From: a virus
Length of the DNA stretch: 26,970 nucleotides
IMG/VR virus record: IMGVR_UViG_3300032326_000117
Span: 1 to 26,970 of that record
Direction: 5' to 3' (one strand)
Below are positions 3,568-26,618 of the stretch, one piece after another. The notes under the pieces are model-generated. The model was not told the DNA's origin. It searched no databases and was given only the letters and a program-made list of their open reading frames with translations. How positions within the stretch are numbered: position 1 is the first letter of the stretch; each line of letters begins with the position of its first letter. The translations under genes and the position numbers were made by a program.

Positions 3568-4097
3568 TGTTTGATAAATTAATTGAGATTATATCTAATT
3601 GGTGGTTACAACTGACCCCAATAATTATAATAAGAGATTATGAAAAGGCTGTATTACTAAGGTTTGGGAAATTTAAAAAAGTTCTTGAACCTGGAATACA
3701 TTTCAAAATCCCATTGTTTGATGAAGTGATTGATCAACATGTTGTAACCACAACGTTAAGTCTTGATGCCCAATCTTTGTATACAGCAGATAAACAAAAC
3801 ATTGTTGTAAAAGGATTGGTTAAATATAAGATAGCTGACGTTAAAATATTCTTATTAGAAGTTTGGGATGCCCAAGATGCTATATCAGATATGTCACAAG
3901 CCATCATTAAAAATGTCATTATGTCTATGACATTAGACGAGTGTACAGATTCTGAACTTGATAACACTCTTACTAAGAAAGTGAGGGTGGAAGCTAAGAA
4001 GTGGGGGGTTGAAGTTCAACAAGTTACACTCACTGACCTAGCTCCAATAAGAAGTATTAGACTTATAAATGACAACTTTATTAATAAATTAGATTAG
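3567..4097 (+). CDS. SPFH/band-7 (stomatin-like) protein, 176 aa
   Basis: The protein has a short hydrophobic N-terminal stretch (about residues 6-23, including WWLQLTPIIII) followed by an SPFH/band-7 domain. Visible hallmarks are 'AVLLRFGKF-x3-LEPGIHFKIP', the 'LSLDAQSLYTADKQNIVVKG' strand pair, and a 'WGVEVQQVTLTDLAP' end. It stops after the core domain and lacks the long coiled-coil tail of flotillins and HflK/HflC. Family members bind membranes and oligomerise into rings; HflKC surrounds the FtsH protease. The gene overlaps the portal stop as TAATG and is the last gene before a putative promoter, so it is co-expressed with packaging genes. Its role in the phage is not known to me; possibilities are membrane docking of proheads or modulation of a host SPFH/protease complex. 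It has the only TAG stop in the window, with an in-frame TAA five codons later. Confidence 0.85.
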   Translation: MFDKLIEIISNWWLQLTPIIIIRDYEKAVLLRFGKFKKVLEPGIHFKIPLFDEVIDQHVVTTTLSLDAQSLYTADKQNIVVKGLVKYKIADVKIFLLEVWDAQDAISDMSQAIIKNVIMSMTLDECTDSELDNTLTKKVRVEAKKWGVEVQQVTLTDLAPIRSIRLINDNFINKLD

Positions 4098-11149: not shown

Positions 11150-12253
11150 ATGTCTTGTACAAGTTGTTTTAATGGATGTGTTGAGACTGTATCTGACCAA
11201 TGTGTTAGATATACAGGTCCAACTATTCCTGCTCTAAATATTACTACAGGAGATACATTACTTCATGTAGAAGAAATGATTACAACTAAACTTGTTCCGT
11301 TATTAACTGGTACAGGTGATGTTATAACTATTGCTTCTGGTGATAAGTGTGCTCTTATAAATGGATTCTTAATAGGAATCACTTCTCCTAATTCTACTCA
11401 ATTATTCACAGCATTAGTTAAATCTGTTTGTAGTTTACAAGCTCAGGTGACTGCAGTTGCTGCTGATATTGCTGTATTAAATGCAGATTATACAATAGGT
11501 TGTCTTACAGGTGTAACAGCCTCTTCTGACACACATGCTATCTTACAAGCTGTTATTACAAGACTTTGTGTTGTAGTGGCAGATTTAGCAGCGTTAAGTT
11601 TAGATGTAAGTACAAACTATGTAAAACTATCTGAATTAGATTCATTAATAGCTGCTTACATAGCTAGTCAATCAGGTAATGTAAATCAGAACTATTTAAA
11701 GATGGTTCCTTTTACAGTGGTTGAATACTACGGTCCTCTTACAAACTTTGATGGTACAGGTGCTGGTATAGGAACATTAGGATGGGATAAAATCTATTTA
11801 TGTAATGGCTCTAACGGCACTCCTGATAAAAGAGGTAGAGTTGGTGTAGGAGCTATTCTTAATGTTCCTGGTGGTCCATTAAACGCTGCTGTAGATCCTG
11901 TTTATACTGGTAATCCAAATTATGATCTTGAAGATATTGCTGGTGCAAACACAGTGGCTATAAATGTTAATCAACTTCCTAGTCATACACATGGTGCAAC
12001 AGCAAGTGCTACATCTATTGTAACAGATCCTGGACATAGTCACTTTGCAGGAAGACAAAATGATTTTGGTGGAGCAAGTGGAAGTATAGGTTTATCTAAA
12101 AATATACCACAAAATAATCAAACTACTACTTCTACAACAGGTATCACTGTAGCAACAACTGTAAATGTAAGCAACACAAACACTGGTAGTAATCAAGGTC
12201 ATCCAAACATTCAACCTGTAATTGCTTCTTATTACATCATGTATATTCCTTAA
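11150..12253 (+). CDS. Tail-collar-domain fibre protein (367 aa)
   Basis: The N-terminal ~50 residues (Cys motifs CTSC-x3-C, then 'YTGP-x-IP', 'ITTGDTL') are shared with the next gene and probably dock the fibre. Residues ~60-185 look like a helical shaft. From ~186 a phage tail-collar-type domain follows: 'LGWDKIYLCNGSNGTPDKRGRVGVG', 'NQLPSHTHG' and a final 'GHPNIQPVIASYYIMYIP'. The His-x-His pairs at about 279-281 (HTH) and 296-298 (HSH) match the metal-binding HxH motifs of trimeric phage fibre tips such as T4 gp37/gp12. It is expected to be a trimeric receptor-binding or appendage protein. Start context TATAAAATGTCTTGT is nearly the same as at 12273. Confidence 0.82.
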   Translation: MSCTSCFNGCVETVSDQCVRYTGPTIPALNITTGDTLLHVEEMITTKLVPLLTGTGDVITIASGDKCALINGFLIGITSPNSTQLFTALVKSVCSLQAQVTAVAADIAVLNADYTIGCLTGVTASSDTHAILQAVITRLCVVVADLAALSLDVSTNYVKLSELDSLIAAYIASQSGNVNQNYLKMVPFTVVEYYGPLTNFDGTGAGIGTLGWDKIYLCNGSNGTPDKRGRVGVGAILNVPGGPLNAAVDPVYTGNPNYDLEDIAGANTVAINVNQLPSHTHGATASATSIVTDPGHSHFAGRQNDFGGASGSIGLSKNIPQNNQTTTSTTGITVATTVNVSNTNTGSNQGHPNIQPVIASYYIMYIP

Positions 12254-12272: not shown

Positions 12273-14084
12273 ATGTCTTGTTTACCTGGTACACCTTGCT
12301 ATGACGCTTATTATCATCCTAATCAAACTTCTGGATGCTCTCCTTGTGAGACAACAGCAGATCATGTTATATATAATGGACCTAACTTACCTAATACAGG
12401 AATTCACACTGGAGATAATCTAGACTGTGCACTATCAAAAATAGATGATTCTATTGGTACAGGTGGTGGAGGAACAGGTACATCAGGTACGTCTGGTTCT
12501 TCTGGCACTCGTGGAACTAGTGGTACATCAGGTACTTCTGGTATTAACGGTGCACCAGGAGCTGCTGGTTCATCTGGTACATCTGGTGCAAATGGTACTT
12601 CTGGTGGTAACGGTACTTCTGGTACTTCTGGTGTAAGTGGTACAAATGGTGCTTCAGGAACTAGTGGAACATCTGGTGGAAGAGGTGCTGATGGAACAAG
12701 TGGTATTAATGGAACTAGTGGTGCAAACGGTACAAGTGGTCTTACAGGAAGTTCAGGAACTGATGGTTCTTCAGGAACCTCTGGTATAGATGGAACCTCT
12801 GGTACAAGTGCTGTAGATGGAACTTCTGGCTCAGCTGGAACTTCTGGAATAGATGGCACCTCTGGTAGTTCAGGAACCACTGGAACTTCAGGAACAACTG
12901 GAACTTCTGGTACATCAGGTTTTGAAGGAGGTCTTGCACAATGGAGATTTAATCCTAGTACAAATACAAACGTTAACCCTGGTGTTACATACTTCACTTT
13001 AAATGATGCAAGTTGGTTAGCATCCGCTTCTCAAATTGCAATCAGTGATTTATCATATAATCCTAGTGCTGACTTCTCAGCATATCTAGATGCACTGAAC
13101 CCTTTCTCAGCACTTAAGCTAGTTAGTACTGTTGATTCTTCTAGATTTAAAATATTAGAAATTGTATCCACTTCTCCTTTTGAAGTGGGTTTTGAAAGAT
13201 TTATAGTTACTCAAACTGCAGCTCAGGGTACAAATCCTGTAAGTGGTGAAACATTCATGATAGTTCCTGTAGGTGCTGCTGGTAGTTCAGGAACATCTGG
13301 AACAGCTGGTTCTAGCGGTACCACTGGCACATCAGGCACATCAGGTACTAGTGGTACATCTGGTACAAGCGGCACGAGTGGAACCTCTGGTACTAGTGGT
13401 ACATCAGGCACATCTGGAACTACTGGTACGTCTGGTACAACAGGTACTTCAGGAACAACTGGAACCAGTGGGTCTTCAGGTTCTAGCGGTACAACAGGAA
13501 CCAGTGGATCTTCAGGTCAAAGTACAGGTGGTACATCTGGTACTTCAGGGTCTTCAGGATTAAGTACTGGAGGAACTTCAGGTACATCTGGAGCTAGCAC
13601 TGGGGGAACTTCTGGTACTTCTGGTTCTTCAGGAGCTAGTACAGGAGGTACATCTGGAACTTCTGGAACTAGTGGAGCTAATGGAGCAGGATTTAATTCT
13701 ATTTCTCCTACAACATCAGGAGCTGTTCTTACAGCAAACGGTACATCAAACAGTGCAACAGCTAATCCTTCAGTTTATATAAGTAGCACTAGTCAGTTAA
13801 ATGCTGGTTCATTCTTTGAAACTTCAGATATCAGATTTAAAAATGTATTAGAAACAAATCCTAATATTGATGTATTAGGAATACAAGTAATTAAATTTAC
13901 TCGTACAGATGAAGAGTCTAACCAAATTAGATATGGATATTCTGCACAACAGGTACAAGAAATTTTACCTGACGCTGTGTCAGGAGAAGATAAATTAGTG
14001 GTTAACTATTCAGATGTACATACATTGAAAATAGCACAATTAGAAAAACGCATAGCAGAATTAGAAGCTAAATTAAACCAATAA
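12273..14084 (+). CDS. Collagen-like fibre with C-terminal S74-type chaperone domain (603 aa)
   Basis: Domain order: Cys-containing docking module (1-60) resembling that of the preceding gene; Gly-X-Y repeats, mostly GTS (about 64-216, with one Gly-to-Ala break at 180); a globular insert (219-334); a second Gly-X-Y block (337-470); a short beta region (473-516); and an S74-type intramolecular chaperone (518-603) with SDIRFKN, 'YGYSAQQVQEILPDAV' and a terminal leucine-heptad coil. S74 domains trimerise the fibre and then cut themselves off, here probably just before Ser518. At ~86 residues the domain is on the short side. Collagen-like fibres in phages form triple-helical shafts, so this is likely a long, thin virion fibre. 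It overlaps the next gene as TAATG. Confidence 0.85.
   Translation: MSCLPGTPCYDAYYHPNQTSGCSPCETTADHVIYNGPNLPNTGIHTGDNLDCALSKIDDSIGTGGGGTGTSGTSGSSGTRGTSGTSGTSGINGAPGAAGSSGTSGANGTSGGNGTSGTSGVSGTNGASGTSGTSGGRGADGTSGINGTSGANGTSGLTGSSGTDGSSGTSGIDGTSGTSAVDGTSGSAGTSGIDGTSGSSGTTGTSGTTGTSGTSGFEGGLAQWRFNPSTNTNVNPGVTYFTLNDASWLASASQIAISDLSYNPSADFSAYLDALNPFSALKLVSTVDSSRFKILEIVSTSPFEVGFERFIVTQTAAQGTNPVSGETFMIVPVGAAGSSGTSGTAGSSGTTGTSGTSGTSGTSGTSGTSGTSGTSGTSGTSGTTGTSGTTGTSGTTGTSGSSGSSGTTGTSGSSGQSTGGTSGTSGSSGLSTGGTSGTSGASTGGTSGTSGSSGASTGGTSGTSGTSGANGAGFNSISPTTSGAVLTANGTSNSATANPSVYISSTSQLNAGSFFETSDIRFKNVLETNPNIDVLGIQVIKFTRTDEESNQIRYGYSAQQVQEILPDAVSGEDKLVVNYSDVHTLKIAQLEKRIAELEAKLNQ
12462..12920 (+). repeat. Collagen-like coding repeat, block 1
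   Basis: Nine-base units such as GGTACATCT/GGTACTTCT encode Gly-Thr-Ser and related Gly-X-Y triplets in tandem. The low-complexity DNA leaves long open frames in other readings, including the opposite strand (12404-12997), which are artefacts of the repeat. Such arrays can change length by slippage or recombination. Confidence 0.85.
13281..13683 (+). repeat. Collagen-like coding repeat, block 2, with a higher-order sub-repeat
   Basis: The first part is almost pure Gly-Thr-Ser. The second part contains four copies of the 10-residue unit STGGTSGTSG (protein residues ~417-426, 431-440, 442-451, 456-465) whose TGG breaks the Gly-X-Y register by two residues each time. The breaks would kink or locally melt a triple helix. 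Confidence 0.8.
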
Positions 14085-14962: not shown

Positions 14963-16210
14963 ATGGCTATAAATATAACATTAACATTAGGTGCTGGGTT
15001 AGGTGCTAACTTAGGACCAAACTTTAATCTTACAGCAGATGTTGGAAGTGTAATTCCATCAACTGCTACCAAAGCAGAATTGCTTGCAGGTAAAGTTGTT
15101 GATGTAGATAACTCTGCTAGTCAAGTGACAGTAACATCTACTGGAGCTTGTACAAATGTAATATCACAAGCTATTCCATGTGCTAGTACTACAACTACAA
15201 CCACTACAATTAATCCAACTAACAACCTTAATTTTATTCAGACTATTGTAAGTAGAGATGATGTTACTAGCTCAAATGATGGAAAATATGTAGCTACAAT
15301 ATGCGTTACAAATAATAAGTTATATCTTTCTAATGACTATGGACTTACCTATAGATCAATAACTGTATCTGGAACAAATACAGTAAGAAGTGTTGCAATA
15401 AGTGGAACAGGTCAATATATATATTGCATTGTAAACCCATCAGGACAGCCACATTTTATTGTAAGATCTACAGATTATGGTGTTAATTGGAATACTACAG
15501 GTACTGCAACAGGAGCATATTCTTCAATTACTACAAATAGAACAGGACAATATGTAATTGTTGGAGCAATAAATTTAGGTGAAGCAGAATCAGGGTTGGG
15601 TCAAATTTGGAGATCTTCAGATTATGGAGTATCTTTTGTAAGAGTAGATTTTTCTTTTGGTGGTCTTTATCCTCAAGCACCCTATGCTGTTACAGTAGAT
15701 AGTTCAGGTAATCGTCAATATGCTGCTACCATTAATCTTACTATGGCAGCATTTGATGGAACTGTAGGAAGAACAACAACTGCTTTAGGTAATTTTACAC
15801 CCAAAGCTCAAGATGGTAATCAAACATATTATGGAGTGAGTACCTCTGCTGATGGATCAAAAGTGGTTGTTGCTAATCAAGGTGGATTTTACGGATATAG
15901 TCCTGGAAATGTTCAGTTGAAAAGAAGTATAGATTATGGTGACACGTATGCAAATTTTGGTGGAGTTTCTACTCAATGGCTTGGTGTAACTATAGATGGA
16001 AGTGGTACAAATATAATAGCTGTTCCAGGTACTTCAGGAGCAAGCACTTTATATAAATCAGTTTCATTTGGTACACTTTCTTCAGTAGCAAGTTCTAAAC
16101 TTTGGACTAGTGTATCAATTTCTTATAATGCAACTGTAGCAATTGCTGCAGAAACAACTGGACTTTGGAGATCTACAAATGGTGGATCTACTTGGACAAA
16201 ATTACCTTAA
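14963..16210 (+). CDS. Docking-domain adhesin with Asp-box beta-propeller (415 aa)
   Basis: Residues 1-70 are a divergent copy of the N-terminal module shared with genes at 16225, 25117 and 25752 (here NLGPNFNLTADVG, KAELLAGK, TSTGAC). A Thr linker (75-82) leads to residues ~90-415, which carry five Asp-box (BNR) motifs: SNDYGLTY (123-130), STDYGVNW (169-176), SSDYGVSF (218-225), SIDYGDTY (322-329) and STNGGSTW (404-411). Asp-boxes mark beta-propellers of sialidases, exo-xyloglucanases and Vps10-type binders. I see no sialidase RIP motif or arginine triad, so a glycan- or surface-binding propeller is more likely than a sialidase. The start follows an AAAAAAATAAAA leader. Confidence 0.75.
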   Translation: MAINITLTLGAGLGANLGPNFNLTADVGSVIPSTATKAELLAGKVVDVDNSASQVTVTSTGACTNVISQAIPCASTTTTTTTINPTNNLNFIQTIVSRDDVTSSNDGKYVATICVTNNKLYLSNDYGLTYRSITVSGTNTVRSVAISGTGQYIYCIVNPSGQPHFIVRSTDYGVNWNTTGTATGAYSSITTNRTGQYVIVGAINLGEAESGLGQIWRSSDYGVSFVRVDFSFGGLYPQAPYAVTVDSSGNRQYAATINLTMAAFDGTVGRTTTALGNFTPKAQDGNQTYYGVSTSADGSKVVVANQGGFYGYSPGNVQLKRSIDYGDTYANFGGVSTQWLGVTIDGSGTNIIAVPGTSGASTLYKSVSFGTLSSVASSKLWTSVSISYNATVAIAAETTGLWRSTNGGSTWTKLP

Positions 16211-16224
16211 TTAAATAAACCAAC

Positions 16225-16836
16225 ATGACAGTATTAATAACTTTGACAACAGCTGGTTCTGATACAGGACCATTTAACATCTACTCAAATTCAAATGGAT
16301 TTTCAACAATAATCATCTCTGGTGTATCTAGAGCGTCTTTGGTAGCTGGCTATAATGCAACTGTTCCTGATGGAACTACAGAAGTTTTAGTTAGATCTAC
16401 AGGAGCTTGTCAAAGAGATCTTTATTTAGATGTATCAGGTGCTCCTGCTACAACAACTAGTACTACTAGTTCTACAACAAGTACTTCTACAACAGAAGCT
16501 CCTATTGTTCCAACTATCTACTTAGGACAACCAATTTGTAAATATAACAACTGTAATGATAATGCTGCTTGTGCTGTAGTTTATGATATAATTGTAAACA
16601 ACGCTCCTCCTGCATCATACGTAGAATTAGTTACAACTTTCCCTGCATCTACAGCTAATGTAAGTTTAACTGATACACAGCCTTCTACAGCTAGGATATT
16701 GTATTACGAGCCTTCTGGATCAGCAACTCCTGTATATTTTACAATACAGTTAAAGTTAGGATCAACAGTGTTAGCTTATAGTGATACATCATTAACCCAT
16801 CAATCATTCTGGCAATTTTTAACTAATTGCTCATAA
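16225..16836 (+). CDS. Docking-domain adhesin (203 aa)
   Basis: Residues 1-70 are the shared module in its clearest form: LITLTTAGSDTGPFNIYSN, SLVAGYNATVPDG, RSTGAC. A long Thr/Ser linker (75-91) follows, then a beta-rich C-terminal domain (~93-203) with a cluster of Cys (ICKYNNCNDNAAC) and alternating hydrophobics typical of an Ig-like or jelly-roll fold. The C-terminal domain is unrelated in sequence to that of the propeller adhesin just upstream, although the N-terminal modules match. It is the last gene before the terminator at 16873. Likely role: interchangeable receptor- or surface-binding protein on the virion. Confidence 0.68.
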   Translation: MTVLITLTTAGSDTGPFNIYSNSNGFSTIIISGVSRASLVAGYNATVPDGTTEVLVRSTGACQRDLYLDVSGAPATTTSTTSSTTSTSTTEAPIVPTIYLGQPICKYNNCNDNAACAVVYDIIVNNAPPASYVELVTTFPASTANVSLTDTQPSTARILYYEPSGSATPVYFTIQLKLGSTVLAYSDTSLTHQSFWQFLTNCS

Positions 16837-16872
16837 GATAGTAAAAACCCTGTTTGTTGGTTTACAGGGCAT

Positions 16873-16904
16873 CCCCTGGGGTTTCTACCCTGGGGGTTTT
16901 TTTT
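16873..16904 (+). terminator. Rho-independent terminator after the fibre island
   Basis: CCCC (16873-16876) pairs with GGGG near 16892-16895, and GGG (16878-16880) with CCC (16888-16890), around a single T/T mismatch and a 7-base loop. Eight T residues follow (16897-16904). An additional hairpin (CCCTGT...ACAGGG) lies directly upstream. The structure cleanly ends the transcript of the 16225 gene. Confidence 0.85.
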
Positions 16905-16955
16905 GCAAACTCTAATCAAATTGATTAAACTATATAATTAAATTAGTTAACTAAA

Positions 16956-16988
16956 TTTGGAAAATATCAAAAAAGTTTCATACCTTTA
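16956..16988 (+). promoter_or_regulatory. Putative Bacteroidota-type promoter for the tail unit
   Basis: TTTG at 16956-16959 is followed after 21 bases by TACCTTTA (16981-16988), matching TTTG-N19-21-TAnnTTTG except for the last base. It lies between a terminator and the first gene of the next unit, exactly where a promoter is needed. The predicted start is about 16993-17000, giving a short leader before the ATG at 17018. Confidence 0.55.
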
Positions 16989-17017
16989 CTTTAATTTTAA
17001 CCAAACTTAAAACCTAT

Positions 17018-18259
17018 ATGTCTGGAAACCAACCCCTTTTGGAGCAGCTACAGCAGATGTTACACTGGAAAAAATCAAAGAAATATTACGCTGACAAGCT
17101 AGGAGTGACAGAATTAGAGATTGATGAGTTGTTAACAGATATTAGAAAAAGAGAAGATGAAGCCATAGTTGGCAACTATATATCTGATTTAGAGGACACT
17201 GTAGTTAAGTTTACAGAAGATCTAATAAAAGGAACTGGAGAGATTGTAGCTAACGTTACAGAAGAGATTAAAAGCCTTGATGAGCTTATTGAGAAGTGTA
17301 AGATAGACACAGATAAGTGGGAGATAACTAAATACGTACAAAACTATTGGGGAAACGGAGATAGTCCACACTGGCAAGTAAAAGCCTGGTTAGGAAAGAA
17401 GTCTGCAGAGCAAGTGTTTCAAGATAGCTTTGTGGACTTTTTAGCTTCATATAAGCCTGTTAGTCAGGACATTATGAGTCCTAAGTTTGTAAACGGTAAG
17501 AGTAATGGTATGTTAGTTATCAACAAACAAGACTCTCACTTAAACAAATATGACATTGATGGCAACAATGATATAGTTGATAGACTTTCTAACATCATGT
17601 ACAAGGTAGAGTTGATTGCTAATCAAGCACAGCTTTCCAACAACTTAGAGCAAATTACATACATCATTGGTTCTGATGAGTTTAACAGTGAGTTTACAGG
17701 AATGACTACAAAAGGTACTCCTCAAACAAACACTCATACATATCAAACATCTTTTGAATACATCTGTGGGCATGAGGTGTTAATGATTACAATGTTATTA
17801 CAATATGCTGAGAACGTGAATGTTGTGTACGTAGCAGGTAATCATGATGAGTTTGTAGGATGGCATATGGTTAATTGGTTACAAACCTATTTTAGAAATA
17901 CAGATAGATTAACTTTTGACTGCTCTCCTAAGTATAGAAAGTATATAAGCTATGGTAATTCAGCAATGATGTTTAACCATGGGGATGCAATCAAACCTGC
18001 TAAGTTAGCAGCACTATTCCCAATAGAATTTAGAGAAGGATGGTCTTTCCATAATAACTTCTACATATTCACAGGAGACAAACACCATGAAGTAAGTCAC
18101 GACTTTAATGGTATTAAATTTTACCAAATACCAGCATTTTCTAATGCTAAAAGCCTTTGGGATGATAAGAACGGTCACACAATGTCTAAAGCAGAAGTGA
18201 CTGGATTCTTAATAGAACAAGGGTCAGGAATGACAAATATATTTAAACAGTATTTATAA
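17018..18259 (+). CDS. Calcineurin-like metallophosphoesterase with N-terminal HTH-like region (413 aa)
   Basis: The residues for a two-metal calcineurin-like site are visible: Asp172-x-His174 (NKQDSHLNK), Asp220 in 'YIIGSDEFN', Asn275-His276-Asp277 in AGNHDE, His321 in FNHGD, and His356/His357 in 'TGDKHHEVS'. Residues ~4-43 resemble a helix-turn-helix ('YADKLGVTELEIDELL') and ~55-100 form a helical linker. Family enzymes cut phosphomono- or diesters (proteins, nucleotides, DNA as in Mre11/SbcD). The gene heads the tail unit and overlaps the next ring-protein gene as TAATG, so it could be a virion-associated or early-infection enzyme, or one acting on DNA during packaging. The substrate cannot be told from sequence. 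The HTH assignment is weak. Confidence 0.8.
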   Translation: MSGNQPLLEQLQQMLHWKKSKKYYADKLGVTELEIDELLTDIRKREDEAIVGNYISDLEDTVVKFTEDLIKGTGEIVANVTEEIKSLDELIEKCKIDTDKWEITKYVQNYWGNGDSPHWQVKAWLGKKSAEQVFQDSFVDFLASYKPVSQDIMSPKFVNGKSNGMLVINKQDSHLNKYDIDGNNDIVDRLSNIMYKVELIANQAQLSNNLEQITYIIGSDEFNSEFTGMTTKGTPQTNTHTYQTSFEYICGHEVLMITMLLQYAENVNVVYVAGNHDEFVGWHMVNWLQTYFRNTDRLTFDCSPKYRKYISYGNSAMMFNHGDAIKPAKLAALFPIEFREGWSFHNNFYIFTGDKHHEVSHDFNGIKFYQIPAFSNAKSLWDDKNGHTMSKAEVTGFLIEQGSGMTNIFKQYL

Positions 18260-18993
18260 TGGCAACATTACGTAAGTTAGTTTCAGATGTGCGTGGAATG
18301 CATAAGCTTATATCCACAGATAACGTTATCACAGATAGAGTTATTGCATCAGAGATTAGAAACAACACACAGTTATTAGTTAAACGTGAGACAAATCTCA
18401 GAAAGCTTTGGGCTACTGATACTGTCTTTAATACCATCCAATGTTTGGAAATGGTAGAAGTTCCTATTTCTGACTGTTGTAATTACGTAGACCCATGTAC
18501 TGTTTCTAGAAGTAAATATAAACTTCCTAGGATTACAGAAGGAAATTATCAATATTTGATACAAGGTGTTTATTCTATAAACGCTATGGGAGGAATGGGT
18601 ACAAAGTTTAAAGAGATTACAATCAATAGATATTTAAATTTACTAGGACTTCCTATTATTAAAAAACAAACATACTATTGGATAGCAAATGAAGGTTACT
18701 TATATTTGAGTAATCCAAATTTAAAATCAGTTAGGATATCAGCATTCTTTGAAGAAGACATTCCTAATGATATTGCATATCCAGAATGTGGTTGTGGTAC
18801 TGGTCCTGAGGTTACTGATGAAGAATACTGTAAAAATCCTTTGGATAAAGAATATGGTTGTCCAGGATATCTTGAGAAACAAGTATTAGAGCTTACGTCT
18901 CAAAAATTATTATCTACATATTTTAGTATTAAAACAGATATGGCAGATAACGGTGTTGATGGGCAAGCTCCTAATGCACAACCAACCCAGTAA
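18259..18993 (+). CDS. Ring/connector-type tail protein (244 aa), Cys-rich
   Basis: It starts in the stop of the phosphoesterase gene and ends in a TAATG overlap with the next gene. The helical N-terminus ('DNVITDRVIASEIRNNTQLLVKRE') leads into a beta-rich body ('YWIANEGYLYLSNPNLKSVRISAFFEEDIP') and a C-terminal helix ('YLEKQVLELTSQKLLSTYF') before a polar tail. The layout parallels the 243-residue protein at 8222: helices, beta sandwich, final helix with conserved leucines. Several Cys pairs occur (DCC, ECGCG, YC, GC). I associate it with the ring proteins linking portal and tail nozzle in crAss-like phages. The exact counterpart is uncertain. Confidence 0.55.
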   Translation: MATLRKLVSDVRGMHKLISTDNVITDRVIASEIRNNTQLLVKRETNLRKLWATDTVFNTIQCLEMVEVPISDCCNYVDPCTVSRSKYKLPRITEGNYQYLIQGVYSINAMGGMGTKFKEITINRYLNLLGLPIIKKQTYYWIANEGYLYLSNPNLKSVRISAFFEEDIPNDIAYPECGCGTGPEVTDEEYCKNPLDKEYGCPGYLEKQVLELTSQKLLSTYFSIKTDMADNGVDGQAPNAQPTQ

Positions 18994-19469
18994 TGAGGAT
19001 AAAAATTGATTGGAGAAGCTCCAGTAAAGAAAACTACAATAACTTTTGCAAGAAGCATCCCACAATTAAAATTACATTTGATGAGTGGAGAAACATTTTA
19101 TATTCTTATAATGAGAATTTTAAAAGTTATATACTAGAAACTGGAGAAAAAGCAAAGCTACCTTTTGGGTTTGGTGAGTTCTCAATCAATAAAAAGAAAA
19201 GAAAGAAGGTTAAGGATATCAATGGTAAGGAGTACATTAACTTACCAGTAGACTGGCAAAAGTCTAAAGAGAAGGGAAAAATTATATACAACTTTAATTA
19301 TCACACAGAGGGTTACTTTTTTGGCTGGGTATGGTTTAAAGAAACTGCCAGACTAAGAAACATAGACTTGTGGTATTTTAAACCTTCAAGAGTTACATCA
19401 AGATTGCTCTCACATTATATAAAAACAAACGATACGTATCAACACATCTATCGTGAGTGGAAAAAATAA
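18993..19469 (+). CDS. Conserved basic protein of the tail block, function unknown (158 aa)
   Basis: This is a lysine-, tryptophan- and tyrosine-rich protein with 'KKHPTIKITFDEWRNILYSYNENF', a 'LPFGFGEFSINKKKRKK' turn, 'FNYHTEGYFFGWVWFKETARL' and 'FKPSRVTSRLLSHYIK'. Nothing points to an enzyme active site. I recall similar sequences next to ring proteins in crAss-like and related Bacteroidota phages, but cannot name a function. The basic, aromatic character and tight coupling (TAATG with the upstream gene, 3-base gap downstream) fit a small assembly factor or internal tail component that touches DNA. Confidence 0.55.
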   Translation: MRIKIDWRSSSKENYNNFCKKHPTIKITFDEWRNILYSYNENFKSYILETGEKAKLPFGFGEFSINKKKRKKVKDINGKEYINLPVDWQKSKEKGKIIYNFNYHTEGYFFGWVWFKETARLRNIDLWYFKPSRVTSRLLSHYIKTNDTYQHIYREWKK

Positions 19470-19472
19470 ATT

Positions 19473-20441
19473 ATGTCATACTATTATAAGTACAGATTTG
19501 TATCTCCTGAACCAGTTTATGCAACTGTTAAAGAAGAATTAAAAAGCTATTTTGACACAGGAGCTGTGGATGATTTGCTTTTCCCTACTTATTTAAACAA
19601 GTGTTTAAACAAGTTAGGTAGGACAACTTATGCTATTGCTGAGCAAGTTCTTTATATTGAAGACTTCCAAGCTAGGCTTCCTGATAACTTTTATGCTGCT
19701 AGAGAAGCTTGGATGTGTACTGAGATTCCAGGTTATCCTTATCAATCAGCTAACTCATTCTACTCACAAGCTGCATCTCAAACAACTATTCAAATAGCAC
19801 CTATCACTAGTGGTGGAGTTCCTTGCGTAGAACCTAACTGTACAACAGGTTGTCCTACATGTATGCCTGAGCTTATACAAGCTGTATACAAAACAAACAA
19901 TGCAATAGCTAGATCTTATAGACAAGAATATTTATTAAAACCAGGTAACATTTCTGCAAGAAACAACTGTGAGGTTGAATACAGCAATGCTTGGGAGTTT
20001 TATGCTCCACCTCCAACAGTACATGAGTTCACCCCTGGTTCTGCTGGTTATGATTCATTTGACATTAGAGATAATAAATTTGTTACTAACTTCAGAAATG
20101 GTGTAGTACATCTATTATTTTATGCTACAGAGTATGATAATATAGGTAATCAATTAATTCCTGATAACTATCGTATTAGAGAATTTGTAGAAGCATTCAT
20201 TAAATATAAAGTGTTTGAAACTCTTTCAAATCAAATTAATGATGAGACCTTCCAACAAATACAACAAAAGCTAGCTTATTACAAACAGTTACATGATGAA
20301 GCATTTATCATGGCTGATATTGAAATTAAGAAACAAACTCCTTGGGAGAAGCAAAGAAGAATTAAAAATGACTTGAACAGATTCCAAATGTATGAGTTAC
20401 CTAACAGAACTAACAGATACGGCAGGAGAAGAAATAATTAA
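19473..20441 (+). CDS. Tail ring/adaptor protein (322 aa), P22 gp4-like candidate
   Basis: The N-terminal half begins with 'YATVKEELKSYFDTGAVDDLLFPTYLNKCLNKLGR' (helical bundle) then 'VLYIEDFQARLPDNFYAAREAWMC', a strand-turn layout typical of adaptor proteins under the portal. A Cys-rich loop (Cys118, 123, 127, 130: CVEPNCTTGCPTC) could bind a metal. The beta-rich middle ('GVVHLLFYATEYDN') and C-terminal helix pair ('QQIQQKLAYYKQLHDEAFIMADIEIKKQTP') end in a very basic tail. It sits directly before the nozzle gene. In podoviruses the adaptor (P22 gp4, T7 gp11-like) precedes or neighbours the nozzle (P22 gp10, T7 gp12-like), which supports this reading. Confidence 0.55.
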   Translation: MSYYYKYRFVSPEPVYATVKEELKSYFDTGAVDDLLFPTYLNKCLNKLGRTTYAIAEQVLYIEDFQARLPDNFYAAREAWMCTEIPGYPYQSANSFYSQAASQTTIQIAPITSGGVPCVEPNCTTGCPTCMPELIQAVYKTNNAIARSYRQEYLLKPGNISARNNCEVEYSNAWEFYAPPPTVHEFTPGSAGYDSFDIRDNKFVTNFRNGVVHLLFYATEYDNIGNQLIPDNYRIREFVEAFIKYKVFETLSNQINDETFQQIQQKLAYYKQLHDEAFIMADIEIKKQTPWEKQRRIKNDLNRFQMYELPNRTNRYGRRRNN

Positions 20442-20446
20442 TAATT

Positions 20447-23400
20447 ATGGCAGATCAAGAACAAGGAAATATTAGACAGGAATTTAGTTTAGGTAGAACT
20501 GGACTAAATATGGACTCATCTGTAAACCAAGTTGAGAAGGGTAAGCTTACATATGCTTTAAATGCATCTGTTGAGAATTTTAGTGCCACTGCTGTAAACT
20601 ATCAAAATGAACCAGGTAATGAGGTATGTCTAAACTTTCCTGAGAACTTTCTTCTTATTGGAACACATTTTATTCAAGAGAAGAATCAACATATATTCTT
20701 TTTAACGAATCCTGAAACTGGAGCTTCTCAGATTGGATACATGGATAACAATGATTGTATATATCACATGTACGTAGAAGGACTTTGTTTAAACTTTAAT
20801 ATTAACTATCCAATACAAAAAGCTGTACACAAGATTTCAAACTGTAGTACAGAGATTTATTGGACAGATGGATTAAACCCTAGAAGATATTTAGATCTTG
20901 ATAACATTCCATATATTACAACTTTTCCAGATGGTGTTATTTGTGATCCTATTGTAACACCAATACTTGATTGTAATAAATTAAAGATACAACCTAATTT
21001 TAGTATTCCAGATTTAGAAGTTGTTGATGTTATTAATGGTGGAGATTTAAAAGCTGGTACATATCAATTTGCTATTCAATATTGTAGTGCACAAGGAGAT
21101 GCTTATACGTCTTACTATTCAGTAACTAATCCAACTCCTATTGCTAATCCAAAATTAACCACAGCTAACTTTGATTACGCTGTAGGTAGATCTATTGTAG
21201 TTGATATAAGCAATATTGATTTAACAGGATACTTTGAATATTACAATCTAGCTGTAATTAAAACAATAAATGATATCACCTCTGTTCAATTAGTAGGTAC
21301 ATATTTTATTGATGGTGCTACAAATCAAATTACTTATACAGGACAAGATGTAACAGCTATTAGTTTAGCAATTGCTGATATATTTGAAAAGTTTCCGTAC
21401 TATGAGATTGCACAAGATTTAACAGCTGTACAAGATGTTCTTGTATGGGATCAACTTACATCTATTGATAAAATTAATTATCAAAGTATTGCTAGTAAAA
21501 TTGATCTTCAATGGCAAACTTACAAAATTCCAGCTGGAGAAACTTACGCTGATGAACTAAATGCTACTAATTTACGTGGATATCTACGTGATGAAATATA
21601 TGCATTTGAAATTGTTTTCTTATTGAGAAATGGTAAGCAAACAGATGGTTTTCATATTCCTGGTAGGGCTGCTACAGCTGATGATTTAGTAATTGTTAAT
21701 AAATCTACAAATGCTGATTTTATTGGTACAGGAACAACTGCTCCTTATTGGAAAATATACAACACTGCAACTGTAGTTGGAGATGCTTTAGGACCTAATA
21801 TTGGAAATGCTACACCATATAAATTTGGTGATTTTGCGTATTGGGAATCTAATGAAGAATACCCATGTAACACTCTTGTATGGGGGGCTTTAGCTGGACA
21901 AAAGATTCGTCATCATAAGTTCCCTGATATTTTAGTTAGTCCAATGTTTGAGTCACAAACTCCAAACTATAATCTTCCAGAACTACAAACAGCAAATGCT
22001 TTATATCCTATTGGTGTTAAAATAAATACACAACAGGTAACATCGTTAATTGATAACTCTAATCTAACAGCTGATCAAAAAGCTGATATAGTTGCATATA
22101 AAATTGTAAGAGGTGATAGGGCTACAAACAAATCTATTGTAGCAAAAGGTATGTTAAGAAATGTTGGTACTTATGAAAGAGAAGGTACACAATATTACTA
22201 TCCTAACTATCCTTATAATGACATTAAGACTGATCCATTTTTATTAAAAGATAATAATGCTTATAACGCTCAATGTCAAACATTTAAAGTTGTAGTTGCC
22301 ACAGTTGGTACAATGCAAATAACTGATTGTTATACAGGAGAAGTTACTGCTGTTGCTATGCCTTTAGGAATGACTAGCATATGTTCTATTACAGTTCCTT
22401 TAGTAATTACAGGATCTGCTACATTTACTAATGTTACAGCTGTATCTTATACATTAACTTCTTATCTATCAATTCCTTCAACATCTACTACATTTATATA
22501 TACTGATCCAGTTACACTAGTGAGTGTTAATGTAACTGTTCCAGTAAATACTTCACTTACTGTTAGTTCTACAACTGTTCCTAGTCGTGTAAGTGGATCT
22601 CCTAGATATACAATATTAGAGACTACTAATAATAAAAATACAAATTGTTATCCAGTTAATTTAAGTGGATTTGATAATAGTTCTAAATATAGAATGGTGT
22701 TTAATTCACCAGAGACTTCTTTTGGGCAACCTTATTTAGGCAATGTGCTTAAGTTAGAAAGTGCTATGTTTGGAGGGGGTAGAGCACACTTTGTACAAGT
22801 TAAAAATCATGCATTATATAAGTTAATTACTAAACAAGCACAAGTAGATGCTTTAACCTCAAGTTACAATATTGCTAATATAACAGCTCCATTTAATGCT
22901 ACTGCAATGTTCACTGCTTACCAAGCGTATTTAACAATTTATATTAATGGTATTAGCAGAAGAAACTTTACATATTCATTTAATTCCACTGCTCAATATG
23001 ATTATAATGCGGATATTCAAAACGCTGCTCCTGATGCATTTGGTAACATAGGTGTTAAACAAAGGGAACTTGATTTATATCAATATCTTATTCCTGGTTT
23101 TCAATCTGTTGGTGATGTTTATAATGTAAATAACTTTCAAAGAGAATCTTCTGTTTATTTAAAAACATTAGATGCTATAACTCCATTGCCATTTGCTGAA
23201 CAAACTCCATCTTTAGTGGTTTCTGGAAACAGTTTAATTACTGATGATTCAAGATTTACAATTTCTTCAAGAGATAATTGTGCTTCTCCAGAGATGCAAG
23301 AACCTATTAAAGTGGTATCTTATTATGGGTCTATCAAGAACATAAATATTAATCAGTGGGGACAACTATATTCATATCAAACAATTGATACAGGTTTTCA

Positions 23401-25111
23401 AAAACATTTGTCTGATGTAGCAGGAGTTGATACTGTATTTGGTGGAGATACATTTATTGGTAGATTTGCTTATAAAACTAAACTTCCTTTCTTTATTGAT
23501 AATAGAGTGGGGGCTCCTGATGATAGTGATATTTTTTATGATGAATTAGGTAATGTTGCCTACCCACAATACTGGTACTCAGCTAGATCTATACTAAGCA
23601 ATTATAAAGCTGGTGCAACACTAATGAAAAATATTATATCTATTAAGGCACATTATCTTGATTGCCCTAATGATTATACTTTTATAAGTAATACTACTAC
23701 TACTACTTCTACTACAGCTGCTCCAGGTAGTACATCTTTGAGTGATACAACCTATTCATATGACGGTAAGATGTATCTATTTGCTTATGGTATTCCTTAT
23801 TACTATGTAGAAAGTTCTATAAATGTAGACTTGCGTCAAGCATTTAATAACTTAGAAGGTGATTACTATCCACACGTGAGCTCAGGTATTCCTGATAACT
23901 GGTTACAACAATCTGTTGTTCCAATTCAGTTTGACAATACATATACATATAATGTAACGTATTCAAAACAGAATAAAGAAAACTTCTTCTCTCACTTACC
24001 TGTAGATTTTGATGATGACCAATGTTATACAAGCTTTCCATTCAGAGCAGTTTATTCTGAGGCACAAGCAGATAATCCAAGCGTAAGAGTAAATAGTTGG
24101 TTAAATTATAAACCTGTAGCATTCTTTGATTTTCCTCAAAACTATGGCAAGTTAACATCACTAGATGGTATTCAAAATAAAGCTGTGTTAGCTAGATTTG
24201 AGAATAAGTCATTGTTATACAACACGTTGTTAACAATGAATACAAGTAATCCTCAAGCTGCTTATTTAGGCAATCCTTCTTTATTTAGATCTGCTCCTCC
24301 AATTGATTTTGCTGAGACAGACCTTGGATATGTAGGAAGTCAAAATAAGTTCTTATTAAAGATTCCTAATGGACAAGTGACTATAGATGCCAAGAGAGGA
24401 CAAGTATTTCTTATTAATGGAATGGGTGGTCAAATACAAGACTTATCTGCATTTGGTTCAGGACTTAATAAGTTCTTCACAGACCATCTAGCATTTGAAA
24501 TCTTACGTTACTATCCTAATGCTGATACAGATAATCATTTTAATGCTTGTGGTTTACATGGTGTATATGATAGTAAATATGATAGAATCATTATATCTAA
24601 GCTTGACTATATTCCTCAACCAGCATACGCAAGTGTTATTAAATACGATGAGTTGACAGGTGAGTACTATATTGATAAAGCTTATGGTGATTTATCTTTA
24701 AGAAAGGTAGTTAGTTTAACAGACAGACAATACTTCTGTAACAAATCATGGACCCTATCGTACAGTGTAAATATACAAAGCTGGGTTAGTTTCCATAGTT
24801 ATATTCCTAACTATTATATAGCTGAGAATAACTTCTTCTATTCAGGACTGAATGAAGGATGTGACTTAGAAGCTATTGCTGTCATGGAGATTCCTAGTCC
24901 AACTACTACAAGTACAACAACAGTTATATTAAATTGTAACTTAGGTGGTACAGCAGAATATGTTATACCAGTAACAACTACTAGTACAACAACTCCTACT
25001 CCTCCTGTTTATGATTGTACATTAACTGCAGGAAGTGCTGTTATAGTACCCTCACCAGTATATGATTGTACATTAACTGCTGGATCAGCTATTCTTCAAT
25101 TAACAAATTAA
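20447..25111 (+). CDS. Giant tail nozzle ('muzzle') protein (1554 aa)
   Basis: This is the largest gene in the window. The N-terminus ('FSLGRTGLNMDSSVNQVEKGKLTYALNASVEN') is the start pattern I associate with large beta-rich nozzle/muzzle proteins of crAss-like phages. The body is rich in Tyr, Asn and Thr with short strands and many aromatic turns, consistent with a propeller- or barrel-based nozzle forming the tail tip channel. A Thr-rich insertion occurs around residues 1082-1092 and another two near the C-terminus, followed by a tandem YDCTLTAGSA repeat. The ordinary-looking body ends near 'YYIAENNFFYSGLNEGCD', after which only linkers and repeats remain. In related viruses this protein controls genome ejection and carries fibres. 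Fibre-like and docked proteins follow directly. Confidence 0.72.
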   Translation: MADQEQGNIRQEFSLGRTGLNMDSSVNQVEKGKLTYALNASVENFSATAVNYQNEPGNEVCLNFPENFLLIGTHFIQEKNQHIFFLTNPETGASQIGYMDNNDCIYHMYVEGLCLNFNINYPIQKAVHKISNCSTEIYWTDGLNPRRYLDLDNIPYITTFPDGVICDPIVTPILDCNKLKIQPNFSIPDLEVVDVINGGDLKAGTYQFAIQYCSAQGDAYTSYYSVTNPTPIANPKLTTANFDYAVGRSIVVDISNIDLTGYFEYYNLAVIKTINDITSVQLVGTYFIDGATNQITYTGQDVTAISLAIADIFEKFPYYEIAQDLTAVQDVLVWDQLTSIDKINYQSIASKIDLQWQTYKIPAGETYADELNATNLRGYLRDEIYAFEIVFLLRNGKQTDGFHIPGRAATADDLVIVNKSTNADFIGTGTTAPYWKIYNTATVVGDALGPNIGNATPYKFGDFAYWESNEEYPCNTLVWGALAGQKIRHHKFPDILVSPMFESQTPNYNLPELQTANALYPIGVKINTQQVTSLIDNSNLTADQKADIVAYKIVRGDRATNKSIVAKGMLRNVGTYEREGTQYYYPNYPYNDIKTDPFLLKDNNAYNAQCQTFKVVVATVGTMQITDCYTGEVTAVAMPLGMTSICSITVPLVITGSATFTNVTAVSYTLTSYLSIPSTSTTFIYTDPVTLVSVNVTVPVNTSLTVSSTTVPSRVSGSPRYTILETTNNKNTNCYPVNLSGFDNSSKYRMVFNSPETSFGQPYLGNVLKLESAMFGGGRAHFVQVKNHALYKLITKQAQVDALTSSYNIANITAPFNATAMFTAYQAYLTIYINGISRRNFTYSFNSTAQYDYNADIQNAAPDAFGNIGVKQRELDLYQYLIPGFQSVGDVYNVNNFQRESSVYLKTLDAITPLPFAEQTPSLVVSGNSLITDDSRFTISSRDNCASPEMQEPIKVVSYYGSIKNININQWGQLYSYQTIDTGFQKHLSDVAGVDTVFGGDTFIGRFAYKTKLPFFIDNRVGAPDDSDIFYDELGNVAYPQYWYSARSILSNYKAGATLMKNIISIKAHYLDCPNDYTFISNTTTTTSTTAAPGSTSLSDTTYSYDGKMYLFAYGIPYYYVESSINVDLRQAFNNLEGDYYPHVSSGIPDNWLQQSVVPIQFDNTYTYNVTYSKQNKENFFSHLPVDFDDDQCYTSFPFRAVYSEAQADNPSVRVNSWLNYKPVAFFDFPQNYGKLTSLDGIQNKAVLARFENKSLLYNTLLTMNTSNPQAAYLGNPSLFRSAPPIDFAETDLGYVGSQNKFLLKIPNGQVTIDAKRGQVFLINGMGGQIQDLSAFGSGLNKFFTDHLAFEILRYYPNADTDNHFNACGLHGVYDSKYDRIIISKLDYIPQPAYASVIKYDELTGEYYIDKAYGDLSLRKVVSLTDRQYFCNKSWTLSYSVNIQSWVSFHSYIPNYYIAENNFFYSGLNEGCDLEAIAVMEIPSPTTTSTTTVILNCNLGGTAEYVIPVTTTSTTTPTPPVYDCTLTAGSAVIVPSPVYDCTLTAGSAILQLTN
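25010..25080 (+). repeat. Direct repeat encoding YDCTLTAGSA at the nozzle C-terminus
   Basis: TATGATTGTACATTAACTGC occurs at 25010-25029 and again, identical over 20 bases, at 25061-25080, offset by 51 bases (17 codons). The encoded unit is VYDCTLTAGSA; a weaker related unit (NCNLGGTAEYV) lies just upstream between two Thr-rich linkers, giving three related units in all. Confidence 0.85.
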
Positions 25112-25116
25112 AATAT

Positions 25117-25740
25117 ATGTCACAAACCGTAGAAATAACAATTGCAGCAGCAGGAGCTGACACAGGCCCATTTAATCTTTTTTCTAATGCAGATGCATAC
25201 GTTACTGCATTTGCTACAGGAATAGCAAAATCAGCTTTGTTGGCTGGTTACACTTCAACTGTAGTACCTGATGCAGCTACTATAGTTAGGGTAAAATCTA
25301 ATAGTGCTAATTGCACAAACTCTGTAGATATGACAATAACAAGTCCTGCACCACCACCAAGTATTACTTTTACTGTAAATAATCCAGCACAATTTAATTA
25401 TCCAATAAGTGCAGGTAATGGTAGTGCAAGTGGAACAATTAAAAATAATAGTGGTAGTACGATATATGTATATTCAAATTTTAATAGCGGAGGACAAGGT
25501 AGCGGTACTATACAAGGAGATACTGGATTTGTTGCTGGTGGAATAGCTTTAGATATACCTGGAGGTCCAATAACATCATTTGGACAGAATTTCTATTCAA
25601 CAAACTATGAAACACTACCTTCAGACAATACTTCATATGCTTGGAGTTTAAGTAAACAAGATGGATTTAGTAGTGGGGCAACTCTTAAGTTAGTATACTC
25701 AACAACAGTTGGTGGAACAAAGATAGCACTGGCACCATAA
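25117..25740 (+). CDS. Docking-domain adhesin (207 aa)
   Basis: The start is placed at 25117 (MSQTVEITIA), not at the upstream in-frame ATG (25066), because the shared module begins here and the upstream part only reads the nozzle repeat in another frame. Residues 1-75 are the shared domain: AGADTGPFNLFSN, SALLAGYTSTVVPD, and SNSANC replacing the usual STGxC. After a short Pro linker (PAPPPS) instead of a Thr linker, residues ~83-207 form a Gly/Ser/Asn-rich beta domain ('NSGSTIYVYSNFNSGGQGSGTI', 'SLSKQDGFSSGATLKLVYSTTVGG') resembling an Ig-like or lectin-like head. It lies five bases after the nozzle gene. Likely role: a small surface-binding protein on the tail. Confidence 0.65.
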   Translation: MSQTVEITIAAAGADTGPFNLFSNADAYVTAFATGIAKSALLAGYTSTVVPDAATIVRVKSNSANCTNSVDMTITSPAPPPSITFTVNNPAQFNYPISAGNGSASGTIKNNSGSTIYVYSNFNSGGQGSGTIQGDTGFVAGGIALDIPGGPITSFGQNFYSTNYETLPSDNTSYAWSLSKQDGFSSGATLKLVYSTTVGGTKIALAP

Positions 25741-25751
25741 AATAATTAAAA

Positions 25752-26618
25752 ATGGCTAAGACAGTAATAATAAAATTAACAGGAGCTGGTAACAGAACAG
25801 GACCGTTCAATATCTATGATAACTTAGGTACTGTTTTGGGCATAGCTGTGTCCAAGGATAACCTTATTGATGGTTACACAGTTAGTGTTGCTGATGCTGT
25901 TACTTCAATTATTATAGAATCTACAGGAAGGTGTAAGACTACTATTGATATAGACATTACAACAATGACTGTTGAACAAATAGCTGCTGTTACATACACT
26001 CCAATTAATACAGCTTCTTTATGGAGACATCTTGCTAACACAACTATTTATAATAAGTATTATGATATTGTAGAACCTTACATTATTGAATACCCATTCT
26101 CATATCAATCATATGATGAGATTCTTCAGAATGTAAAAGACTATACAAAGGCTTATAAATATCTTCCTATACCAGATGGTGTGTTTAATGATAATGCTCA
26201 GATAGAAACTGATAATCAATGGTTTAATAAAGCAGTATTATATAACGGACAGCAGTCCACAGGTGTATTAGAATTGGTACCAAAACCAATTAATAACCTA
26301 AAAGCCTATTTACAATATCCTTTATATAATGCTGAGAGCAAAACTATCACATATACTAAATCTGATAATTTTTATCAGTATAATACTTTTTGGAGTTTAG
26401 TTAAAAATAAAGCCGTACCTTTGTTTACGGTGAGCTGTGAGTCATTATCAATAGACAAGATTGTAAATCAAGCTAATATGGATTACGGAAAAAGATCATA
26501 TAAGAAAGAACCTTTAAGAGCTAAAGAACTTAAGGTAAGACACATTCTTGATAACACTTCAGAAGCTAATTTGGTATCTCAATTTATTATTACACCATCA
26601 CAAATTTCTTACAAGTAA
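25752..26618 (+). CDS. Docking-domain protein carrying a nozzle-like C-terminal region (288 aa)
   Basis: Residues 1-70 are the shared module (GAGNRTGPFNIYDN, NLIDGYTVSVADA, ESTGRC). There is no Thr linker. Residues ~80-288 are unlike the other adhesins: aromatic, Asn-rich and acidic, with 'NKYYDIVEPYIIEYPFS', 'WFNKAVLYNGQQSTGVLEL', 'KSDNFYQYNTFWSLVKNKAVP' and the end 'ASLVSQFII'-like stretch closing in SQISYK. This composition matches the body of the 1554-residue nozzle, and I recall such an ending as the C-terminus of nozzle proteins in related phages (not checked). I infer that this is the displaced C-terminal domain of the nozzle, held on the particle by the docking module. It ends in TAATG with the next gene. 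Confidence 0.6.
   Translation: MAKTVIIKLTGAGNRTGPFNIYDNLGTVLGIAVSKDNLIDGYTVSVADAVTSIIIESTGRCKTTIDIDITTMTVEQIAAVTYTPINTASLWRHLANTTIYNKYYDIVEPYIIEYPFSYQSYDEILQNVKDYTKAYKYLPIPDGVFNDNAQIETDNQWFNKAVLYNGQQSTGVLELVPKPINNLKAYLQYPLYNAESKTITYTKSDNFYQYNTFWSLVKNKAVPLFTVSCESLSIDKIVNQANMDYGKRSYKKEPLRAKELKVRHILDNTSEANLVSQFIITPSQISYK

Follow-up and report, generated by a model that had tools for sequence, protein, structure and literature searches.

According to the accessible part of PMC6702177, the nozzle of phage T7 carries a fibre dock on its outer surface, which joins the end of the propeller to the platform and is built from six beta elements plus a small helix; the fibre is gripped on one side by this dock and on the other by a dock on the adaptor. 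The muzzle of crassviruses shares a ring-joining domain and a propeller with the T7 nozzle, is highly conserved among these phages and is likely a gatekeeper; in ΦcrAss001, hubs at rings 1-2 are the attachment sites of the fibres and pockets in the hexons hold the head fibres, and no dock is named in the accessible part of that source (PMC10172136). Here, we describe a 26,970-base IMG/VR virus contig, IMGVR_UViG_3300032326_000117 (hereafter the window, meaning the whole stretch of DNA that was analysed), in which the muzzle is encoded in two pieces, and in which the distal piece is preceded by a small module that also leads three separate proteins. Pfam matches identified the window as the structural region of a crAss-like phage: Crass_capsid (7e-27), CrAss_Ring_2 (6.5e-17), CrAss_Ring_1 (3.8e-10), a P22-type portal (2.7e-14) and crAss_MUZ (PF25731; 1.1e-37). 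With capsid, rings and muzzle, it belongs to the Crassvirales.

A shared N-terminal module in four proteins

The initial annotation had attributed a common N-terminal module to the proteins of 415, 203, 207 and 288 amino acids (aa), with several characteristic motifs and an STGxC end, and had placed the copies in two clusters, before and after the tail unit. The open reading frames (ORFs) and modules, the latter also scored with hidden Markov models (HMMs), are as follows.

14963-16210, + strand: gene of the 415-aa protein
14963..15181, + strand: module of the LGPNFNL subtype, N-terminus of the 415-aa protein (HMM E 1e-18)
16225-16836, + strand: gene of the 203-aa protein (stop codon 16834-16836)
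16225..16446, + strand: module of the 203-aa protein (blastp, HMM, leave-one-out)
25117-25740, + strand: gene of the 207-aa protein (the longest ORF begins upstream, at 25066)
25117..25341, + strand: module of the 207-aa protein, between the two muzzle pieces (blastp, HMM, leave-one-out)
25752-26618, + strand: gene of the 288-aa protein
25752..25961, + strand: module of the 288-aa protein, preceding the muzzle C-terminal domain

The module comprises about 72 residues at the N-terminus and is common to all four proteins. In pairwise blastp comparisons the best stretch lay at the N-termini, with E-values of 1.5e-15 (203/288), 4e-15 (203/207) and 1.9e-10 (207/288); the 415-aa protein matched the 203- and 288-aa proteins at 2.1e-5 and 1.2e-5, respectively, and the 207/415 pair gave no blastp match at E <= 10. 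Leave-one-out HMMs regained each copy, at 31.6 bits for the 415-aa protein and at 72.9, 54.8 and 64.0 bits for the others, against 8.6-10.9 bits for the best of 1000 shuffles per copy (10.6 for the 415-aa copy). These comparisons bear out the shared module, and the motifs, the STGxC end and the two clusters had been described correctly. Judged by sequence, the modules of the 203-, 207- and 415-aa proteins are kin. With the database size set to 1000, no fifth copy was found at E < 1 among the 97 window frames of at least 50 codons. An alignment of 52 rows had four invariant columns (F17, G42, S58 and C62 in the numbering of the 203-aa protein) and six that were conserved in at least 90% of the rows (L7, G11, G15, P16, L39 and V47). 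The module had no family match in Pfam, NCBIfam, PHROGs or PDB sequences at the limits used, in agreement with the earlier remark that no named family was known for it. In an AlphaFold2 model, the module of the 288-aa protein was predicted as a small Ig-like domain of six strands and one helix, in the order bbb-helix-bbb, with block means of the predicted local distance difference test (pLDDT) of 81-95 over residues 1-80.

To place the module in a wider context, IMG/VR was scanned with the 288-aa protein (399 relatives), with a free module, that is, one leading a separate protein rather than a muzzle piece (at least 563 relatives), and with the muzzle C-terminal domain in general (423 relatives); 80 relatives were kept from each scan. 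The module HMM found 322 frames among the relatives' loci. These represent 185 distinct proteins across all loci, each of which has one module and none of which has two. At most 26 residues precede the module in the 317 of 322 frames with a visible upstream stop, the remaining five being cut by a locus edge; the count of 322 relied on ATGs picked near the module, and the position was therefore recounted on stop-to-stop frames without a choice of start. Likewise, the module profile identified 171 frames in the window and the 80 loci kept from the scan with the 288-aa protein. The module lies within 15 residues of the first start codon in 168 of these (five of them cut by a locus edge), and 16-19 residues after it in the other three (the 207-aa gene of the window, L054 and L057). 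The number of copies per record was 2-5 in 15 of 15 records, 1-2 in another 15 of 15 and 1-4 in 17 of 17; at a lax limit it was 1-4 in 18 of 18 records, four of which are shared with the set of 17. In the window and the relatives viewed, the copies occupy two places, one upstream before a gene of about 410 aa and one around the muzzle break. A scan of a bacterial genome collection yielded one module match, on a contig of a Tissierellales metagenome-assembled genome (MAG). A partial muzzle lies on that contig too, and another contig of the same MAG encodes a 301-aa protein related to the distal piece; probably these are phage sequences that were binned together with the MAG.

A muzzle in two pieces

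The C-terminal part of the 288-aa protein had been described as nozzle-like and counted as one of four differing C-termini. The propeller-type, Cys-containing and Gly-rich heads of the other three proteins stood up to the analysis, whereas the fourth part proved to be a piece of the muzzle itself. The relevant features are listed below.

20447..24853, + strand: proximal muzzle piece, residues 1-1469 of 1554 (PF25731 crAss_MUZ 1.1e-37; FFYSGLN at residues 1463-1469)
24854..25108, + strand: variable Thr-linked tail at the C-terminus of the proximal piece (59 distinct tails; break in L003 and L004)
26013..26615, + strand: distal muzzle piece, the C-terminal domain, residues 88-288 of the 288-aa protein (phrog_15100, Lbo-JY46, fold)

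Residues 88-286 of the 288-aa protein matched the last 194 positions of phrog_15100 (1588-1781 of 1783) at 5.5e-13. A tblastn search with the C-terminal domain retrieved 31 phage records, including Lbo-JY46, Flavobacterium phages, csAssE-Sib and a gut fragment. On the intact muzzle of Lbo-JY46, the 1554-aa protein aligned with residues 30-1457 and the 288-aa protein with residues 1461-1654 (3e-22), and the aligned ranges of the two pieces abut also in Fpv1, csAssE-Sib and the gut fragment. Structural models pointed in the same direction. In the first AlphaFold model, built from sequences that were 68-86% identical, most of the C-terminal domain had a pLDDT below 50; a model from a more diverse alignment reached a mean pLDDT of 79. 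For this second model, Foldseek ranked the ΦcrAss001 muzzle (7qok_A) first, with an E-value of 0.22 that is weak alone. VIA-align superposed residues 94-285 of the model on residues 1242-1370 of gp44, the ΦcrAss001 muzzle protein (Z 6.6; root-mean-square deviation (rmsd) 3.4; 125 residues), and its second match was the ΦcrAss001 virion tail (7qol) over the same range. A profile alignment made before the model had given a weak match to gp44 1224-1304 (E 0.002, probability 13%). Sequence and predicted fold thus agree on the register of the muzzle C-terminal domain. The sequence matches, with weaker backing from the fold, identify the C-terminal part of the 288-aa protein as the C-terminal domain of a crassvirus muzzle and not as a head. 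The Pfam family PF25729 (crAss_MUZ_C), which is present in gp44, had no match at E <= 1 in the 288-aa protein of the window or of the relative L012; since the intact muzzles of Lbo-JY46 and csAssE-Sib are also without a match, this model looks narrow.

The muzzle of the window is not a single polypeptide, as two genes with separate starts and a stop between them encode it. At the unsplit junction of an intact relative (L208), six residues separate the end of the FFYSGLN-like motif from the start of the distal domain. The break probably comes after the beta-propeller, and the muzzle C-terminal domain is probably the ring-joining or platform domain. Since the C-terminus of the 288-aa protein is a muzzle piece, this C-terminus should hold the protein in the virion, the module being an extra part.

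The split and the module go together. Of the 80 kept loci with a muzzle C-terminal domain, 76 have a split muzzle with the module and four an intact muzzle without it. No module was detected at E <= 1 in eight of eight records with an intact muzzle, ΦcrAss001 among them; as a positive control, the same profile picked up the module in every record with the split piece (15 of 15 in one set, 17 of 17 in another) and in 15 of 15 free-module records. The idea that the module is hidden inside intact muzzles was rejected, the best E-value in four muzzle sequences (one of them a fragment) being 0.16. Conversely, 11 of 15 records with free modules contain a full-length distal piece and 13 have a muzzle match.

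In a tree of 116 modules, a single long branch (length 1.28, support 98/98) separates the free from the muzzle-borne copies; one exception, L103_2547, a truncated muzzle-borne copy labelled as free, was set aside. This tree is unrooted and built from few columns, with rows of at least 85% identity dropped, an unsettled bootstrap and a long-branch warning. The module of the 415-aa protein falls in a subclade of the free modules, most of which are about three residues longer in one loop than the muzzle-borne ones. The simplest order of events would be that the split and the module came first and the free copies later, although very divergent free copies could be missed.

The proximal piece is extended as well. 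In the 80 complete muzzle ORFs from the scan with the 288-aa protein and the window, the conserved muzzle ends at FFYSGLN or its equivalent and continues into a tail whose length ranges from 27 to 805 residues. These ORFs have 59 distinct tails, every one with a Thr/Ser run; those of more than 60 residues form 19 BLAST clusters. With the module on the distal piece and the tails on the proximal piece, both new ends of the split muzzle carry additions. By eye, the muzzle frames of L065 (3587-9985) and L062 (3285-9974), of 2132 and 2229 residues, end in long repeats with [RK][LI]..DGT-like motifs that resemble propeller-forming repeats.

Exchange of heads

Behind the modules of the three free proteins lie the following heads.

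15182..16207, + strand: Thr-rich linker and Asp-box (propeller-type) head of the 415-aa protein (BNR_6 and NCBIfam matches below cut-offs)
16447..16833, + strand: Thr/Ser linker and exchangeable Cys-containing head of the 203-aa protein (DNA comparison with L007 and L011)
25342..25737, + strand: exchangeable Gly-rich head of the 207-aa protein (DNA comparison with L007 and L011)

The propeller-type head matched BNR_6 at 6.3e-5, below the curated Pfam cut-off, as well as the NCBIfam models glycosyl_F510_1955 (8.9e-8) and Ycf48-like (0.012), both below cut-off. A Thr/Ser run follows the module in 102 of 114 complete free proteins, as opposed to none of 63 muzzle-borne ones. The C-terminal parts formed 52 BLAST clusters, comprising one muzzle piece, 11 that are headless, linker-only or cut, and about 40 heads, among which this clustering may miss distant kinship. 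By the same clustering, no C-terminal part was common to the free module proteins.

Comparison with close relatives revealed exchange of these heads in the DNA itself. Against L007, which is 87-94% identical in the surrounding DNA, the match broke at 16507 and returned at 16833; in the 207-aa gene, where the module ends at about 25341 and the stop codon starts at 25738, it broke at 25343 and returned at 25738. The corresponding breaks against L011 ran from 16482 to 16833 and from 25344 to 25748. In L003 and L004 (98.9 and 98.8% identical upstream), the change began in the muzzle tail, at 25006 and 25003, and also took in the module of that slot (72% and 70%). Heads are thus replaced from the module or linker up to the stop codon among relatives with 87-98.9% identical DNA. 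Across 27 genomes, the mean distance was 0.39 between upstream modules and 0.97 between the sequences behind them, in a set from which near-identical genomes had been dropped and in which any protein of up to 100 aa was entered as a dummy string.

Heads also occur on other carriers. The propeller-type head of the 415-aa protein stands behind a different N-terminus in L164, L166 and L112, 94% identical over 324 aa. This third carrier, with an N-terminus unlike the module, lies at 2461-3978 in L164 and L166 and at 3-1478 in L112. Together with the exchange seen in the DNA, this head behind another N-terminus indicates that heads and carriers recombine in both directions. Of 111 heads, 13 matched muzzle tails, some of which carry domains of free heads with up to 89% identity, three matched fibres with another N-terminal motif, and 41 matched the class 'other', which includes module proteins cut by locus ends. 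The earlier picture of a plug-in system therefore held as far as one N-terminal module with many exchangeable C-terminal heads is concerned, but the 288-aa protein is not a fourth plug with a head of its own. For the single socket of that picture, the muzzle base would be a candidate, as this is where the 288-aa protein places its module.

A second reused N-terminal motif, approximately [VI]xYxGPxLP...GDxL...KID, was noticed by eye at the head of fibre-type genes in the window (11150-12253 and 12273-14084), in L178 (2044-3192 and 3203-3970) and in L172, L180, L181, L194 and L197. In several loci it is followed by Thr-rich linkers and variable heads; perhaps it is another docking module, serving a different site.

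Module proteins without a head exist too, consisting of the module only or of module and linker, so that the module persists without a head. Headless proteins of 72-94 aa were seen near 4001-4285 in L172, L178, L180, L194, L181 and L197, and at 9777-9995 in L066 and 1021-1242 in L070. The first six are alike in sequence and lie near a gene of about 405 aa, which suggests a role for the bare module.

Two further genes were recorded among the structural genes. An SPFH/Band 7 (stomatin-like) protein is encoded in the window at 3567-4097 (3.4e-27), directly after the portal gene, and in L180 a reading frame with paired CxxC motifs (5634-6191), ahead of the gene of ring protein 2, looks by eye like an inserted HNH homing endonuclease.

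Proposed docking of the free modules and comparison with known systems

We propose that the module anchors exchangeable heads to the virion, most likely at the base of the muzzle, and that the heads probably bind host molecules; we hold this as a working model with about an even chance of being right. The muzzle is split in front of its C-terminal domain, probably just after the end of the propeller. The distal piece carries the Ig-like module in front, where it could form a dock-like element at the outer surface between propeller and platform, and the proximal piece ends in variable Thr-linked tails and heads. The free modules lead separate proteins, usually built as module, Thr/Ser linker and head, whose heads are swapped up to the stop codon in close relatives. 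In the proposed model they would anchor these heads, probably at the base of the muzzle, where they could pair with the muzzle-borne module or bind an adjacent groove. If the heads bind molecules of the host surface, swapping them would alter the receptor repertoire and leave the gate untouched. More tentatively, and in our estimate rather doubtfully, the split muzzle might serve as an adaptor ring, in which six muzzle-borne Ig modules at the base pair with free modules, and heads from one pool are bolted on either non-covalently via the module or covalently via the freed muzzle C-terminus; binding by the heads could then open the gate directly.

Several observations weigh against this working model. 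The position of the free modules in the virion is itself conjectural, since only the muzzle pieces are placed there, by homology, and the fold match behind the distal piece is modest (E 0.22, and Z below the caution level of 8). Head sharing was rejected as proof of a muzzle location: heads are also shared with carriers other than the muzzle, so this sharing does not place free modules there. Nine of 114 complete free proteins are at most 105 aa long and nearly or wholly headless. Four of the 15 free-module records lack the distal piece, two of them any muzzle; two of these four are short, and the other two, of 69.8 and 53.4 kb, have the module 2.6-4 kb short of the downstream contig end, so the distal piece may have been cut off. 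In four records of more than 112 kb (G035, G036, G038 and G047), the muzzle-borne module is the sole copy even at E <= 10; the muzzle module thus needs no detectable free partner. Three shorter records likewise show a single copy. Co-variation, computed on sets from which near-identical genomes had been dropped, gave little help. A partial Mantel test of muzzle-borne against free modules, controlling for the muzzle C-terminal domain, gave r 0.62 (0/2000; 27 genomes), but with six proteins controlled r was 0.11 and not significant (70/1000; 24 genomes). Control pairs scored higher, at 0.55 and 0.51 for each module against the large muzzle piece (0/1000 each), and at 0.32 (1/1000) and 0.24 (0/1000) for the muzzle-borne module against the 413-aa protein and the 322-aa ring protein. 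Direct coupling of the two modules was therefore rejected as support.

In a rival reading, the module is likewise an anchor of exchangeable heads, but the free copies would dock at another site, such as the tail hub collar between the upper rings or capsid hexons, and would share only ancestry with the muzzle-borne module. We regard this as possible but on balance improbable. It would fit the free copy that lies about 9 kb upstream beside fibre genes in the window and many relatives, the separation of free and muzzle-borne modules across the 1.28 branch (one truncated row set aside), the roughly three extra loop residues of most free modules, and the ring 1-2 hubs and hexon pockets that hold fibres in ΦcrAss001, as the accessible part of PMC10172136 has it. 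It does not sit well with the extra free copies that the window and some relatives have between the muzzle pieces, nor with the lack of the module in records with an intact muzzle.

Alternatively, the module could be a ligand-binding, Ig-like adhesin, with the anchor being the muzzle piece in the 288-aa protein and the C-terminal part or another partner elsewhere. Ig-like folds are common in adhesins, the C-terminus of the 288-aa protein is a virion part, and headless copies exist, all of which would suit an adhesin. Yet the module is always N-terminal and much better conserved than the heads, which are entirely different in close relatives, and the other proteins have no common C-terminal part; we therefore think this unlikely. 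Quite improbable, in our view, is a module that mimics, or is related to, the sorting domain found at the C-terminus of type 9 secretion substrates of Bacteroidota, and that binds this secretion machinery on the host. Such a domain, 8gl8_D, was the top match of the module in both VIA-align tables (Z 5.8, rmsd 2.5, 65 residues, 20% identity), but this Z does not reach 8 and lies no more than 1 away from the values for fibronectin III and other Ig-like domains, the fold is generic, and no PDB sequence matched the module.

In the open-licence literature we found no description of the split muzzle or of the module. As far as this literature shows, three things are new: a module family that has no name, the position of this module in a muzzle that is split, and the fact that both ends of the break are put to use. 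The lineage with the split muzzle is large and environmental, and the interruption of its crassvirus muzzle lies at a single fixed position, with each side of the break carrying extra domains. This arrangement gives rise to a model, open to testing, in which crAss-like phages could vary the receptors they bind while keeping the gate. The module also provides a sequence handle for likely receptor-binding proteins in phages with unannotated fibres, including the unclassified marine Virus NIOZ-UU157. Predicted structures in BFVD, where all of these proteins are called uncharacterized, indicate the same set in this virus: a 287-aa protein that is 54% identical to the 288-aa protein, a 77-aa protein of module size (rmsd 1.7) and a 939-aa protein, part of which resembles the module (rmsd 2.3); the match of a 417-aa protein is less clear. 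A 2026 sediment study, in its accessible part, names Virus NIOZ-UU157 as its most abundant marine viral taxon.

T7 gp12 was not among the listed fold matches of our models, an absence that carries no weight. To our knowledge, its fibre dock is not copied onto other T7 proteins. As the accessible text of PMC6702177 describes it, this dock is a small domain that links the propeller to the C-terminal platform; its count of six beta elements and one helix agrees with that of the modelled module, and it differs from the module in being part of one chain. The break position obtained by alignment fits that of the dock, and if the muzzle C-terminal domain is the ring-joining domain, the muzzle-borne module would by analogy lie at the position of the T7 fibre dock. 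As regards ΦcrAss001 gp44, a muzzle with PF25731 and PF25729, the proximal piece matches PF25731, and gp44 1242-1370 is the first fold match of the distal piece. However, gp44, in its accessible description, is one five-domain protein, from a genome without a module match, whereas the muzzle of the window consists of two proteins, and its break is flanked by Thr-linked tails on the proximal piece and by the module on the distal one. Proteins in which an N-terminal anchor carries exchanged C-terminal parts are a known kind of arrangement. Shuffling of protein fragments in phages is treated in PMC10684548, as far as its accessible part goes. Like the phage receptor-binding proteins that share an anchor, the free module proteins combine a constant N-terminus with a swapped C-terminus and recombination at domain borders; unlike in those proteins, the Ig-like anchor described here is also built into the gate protein, is present in up to five copies among the records examined and carries about 40 clusters of heads.

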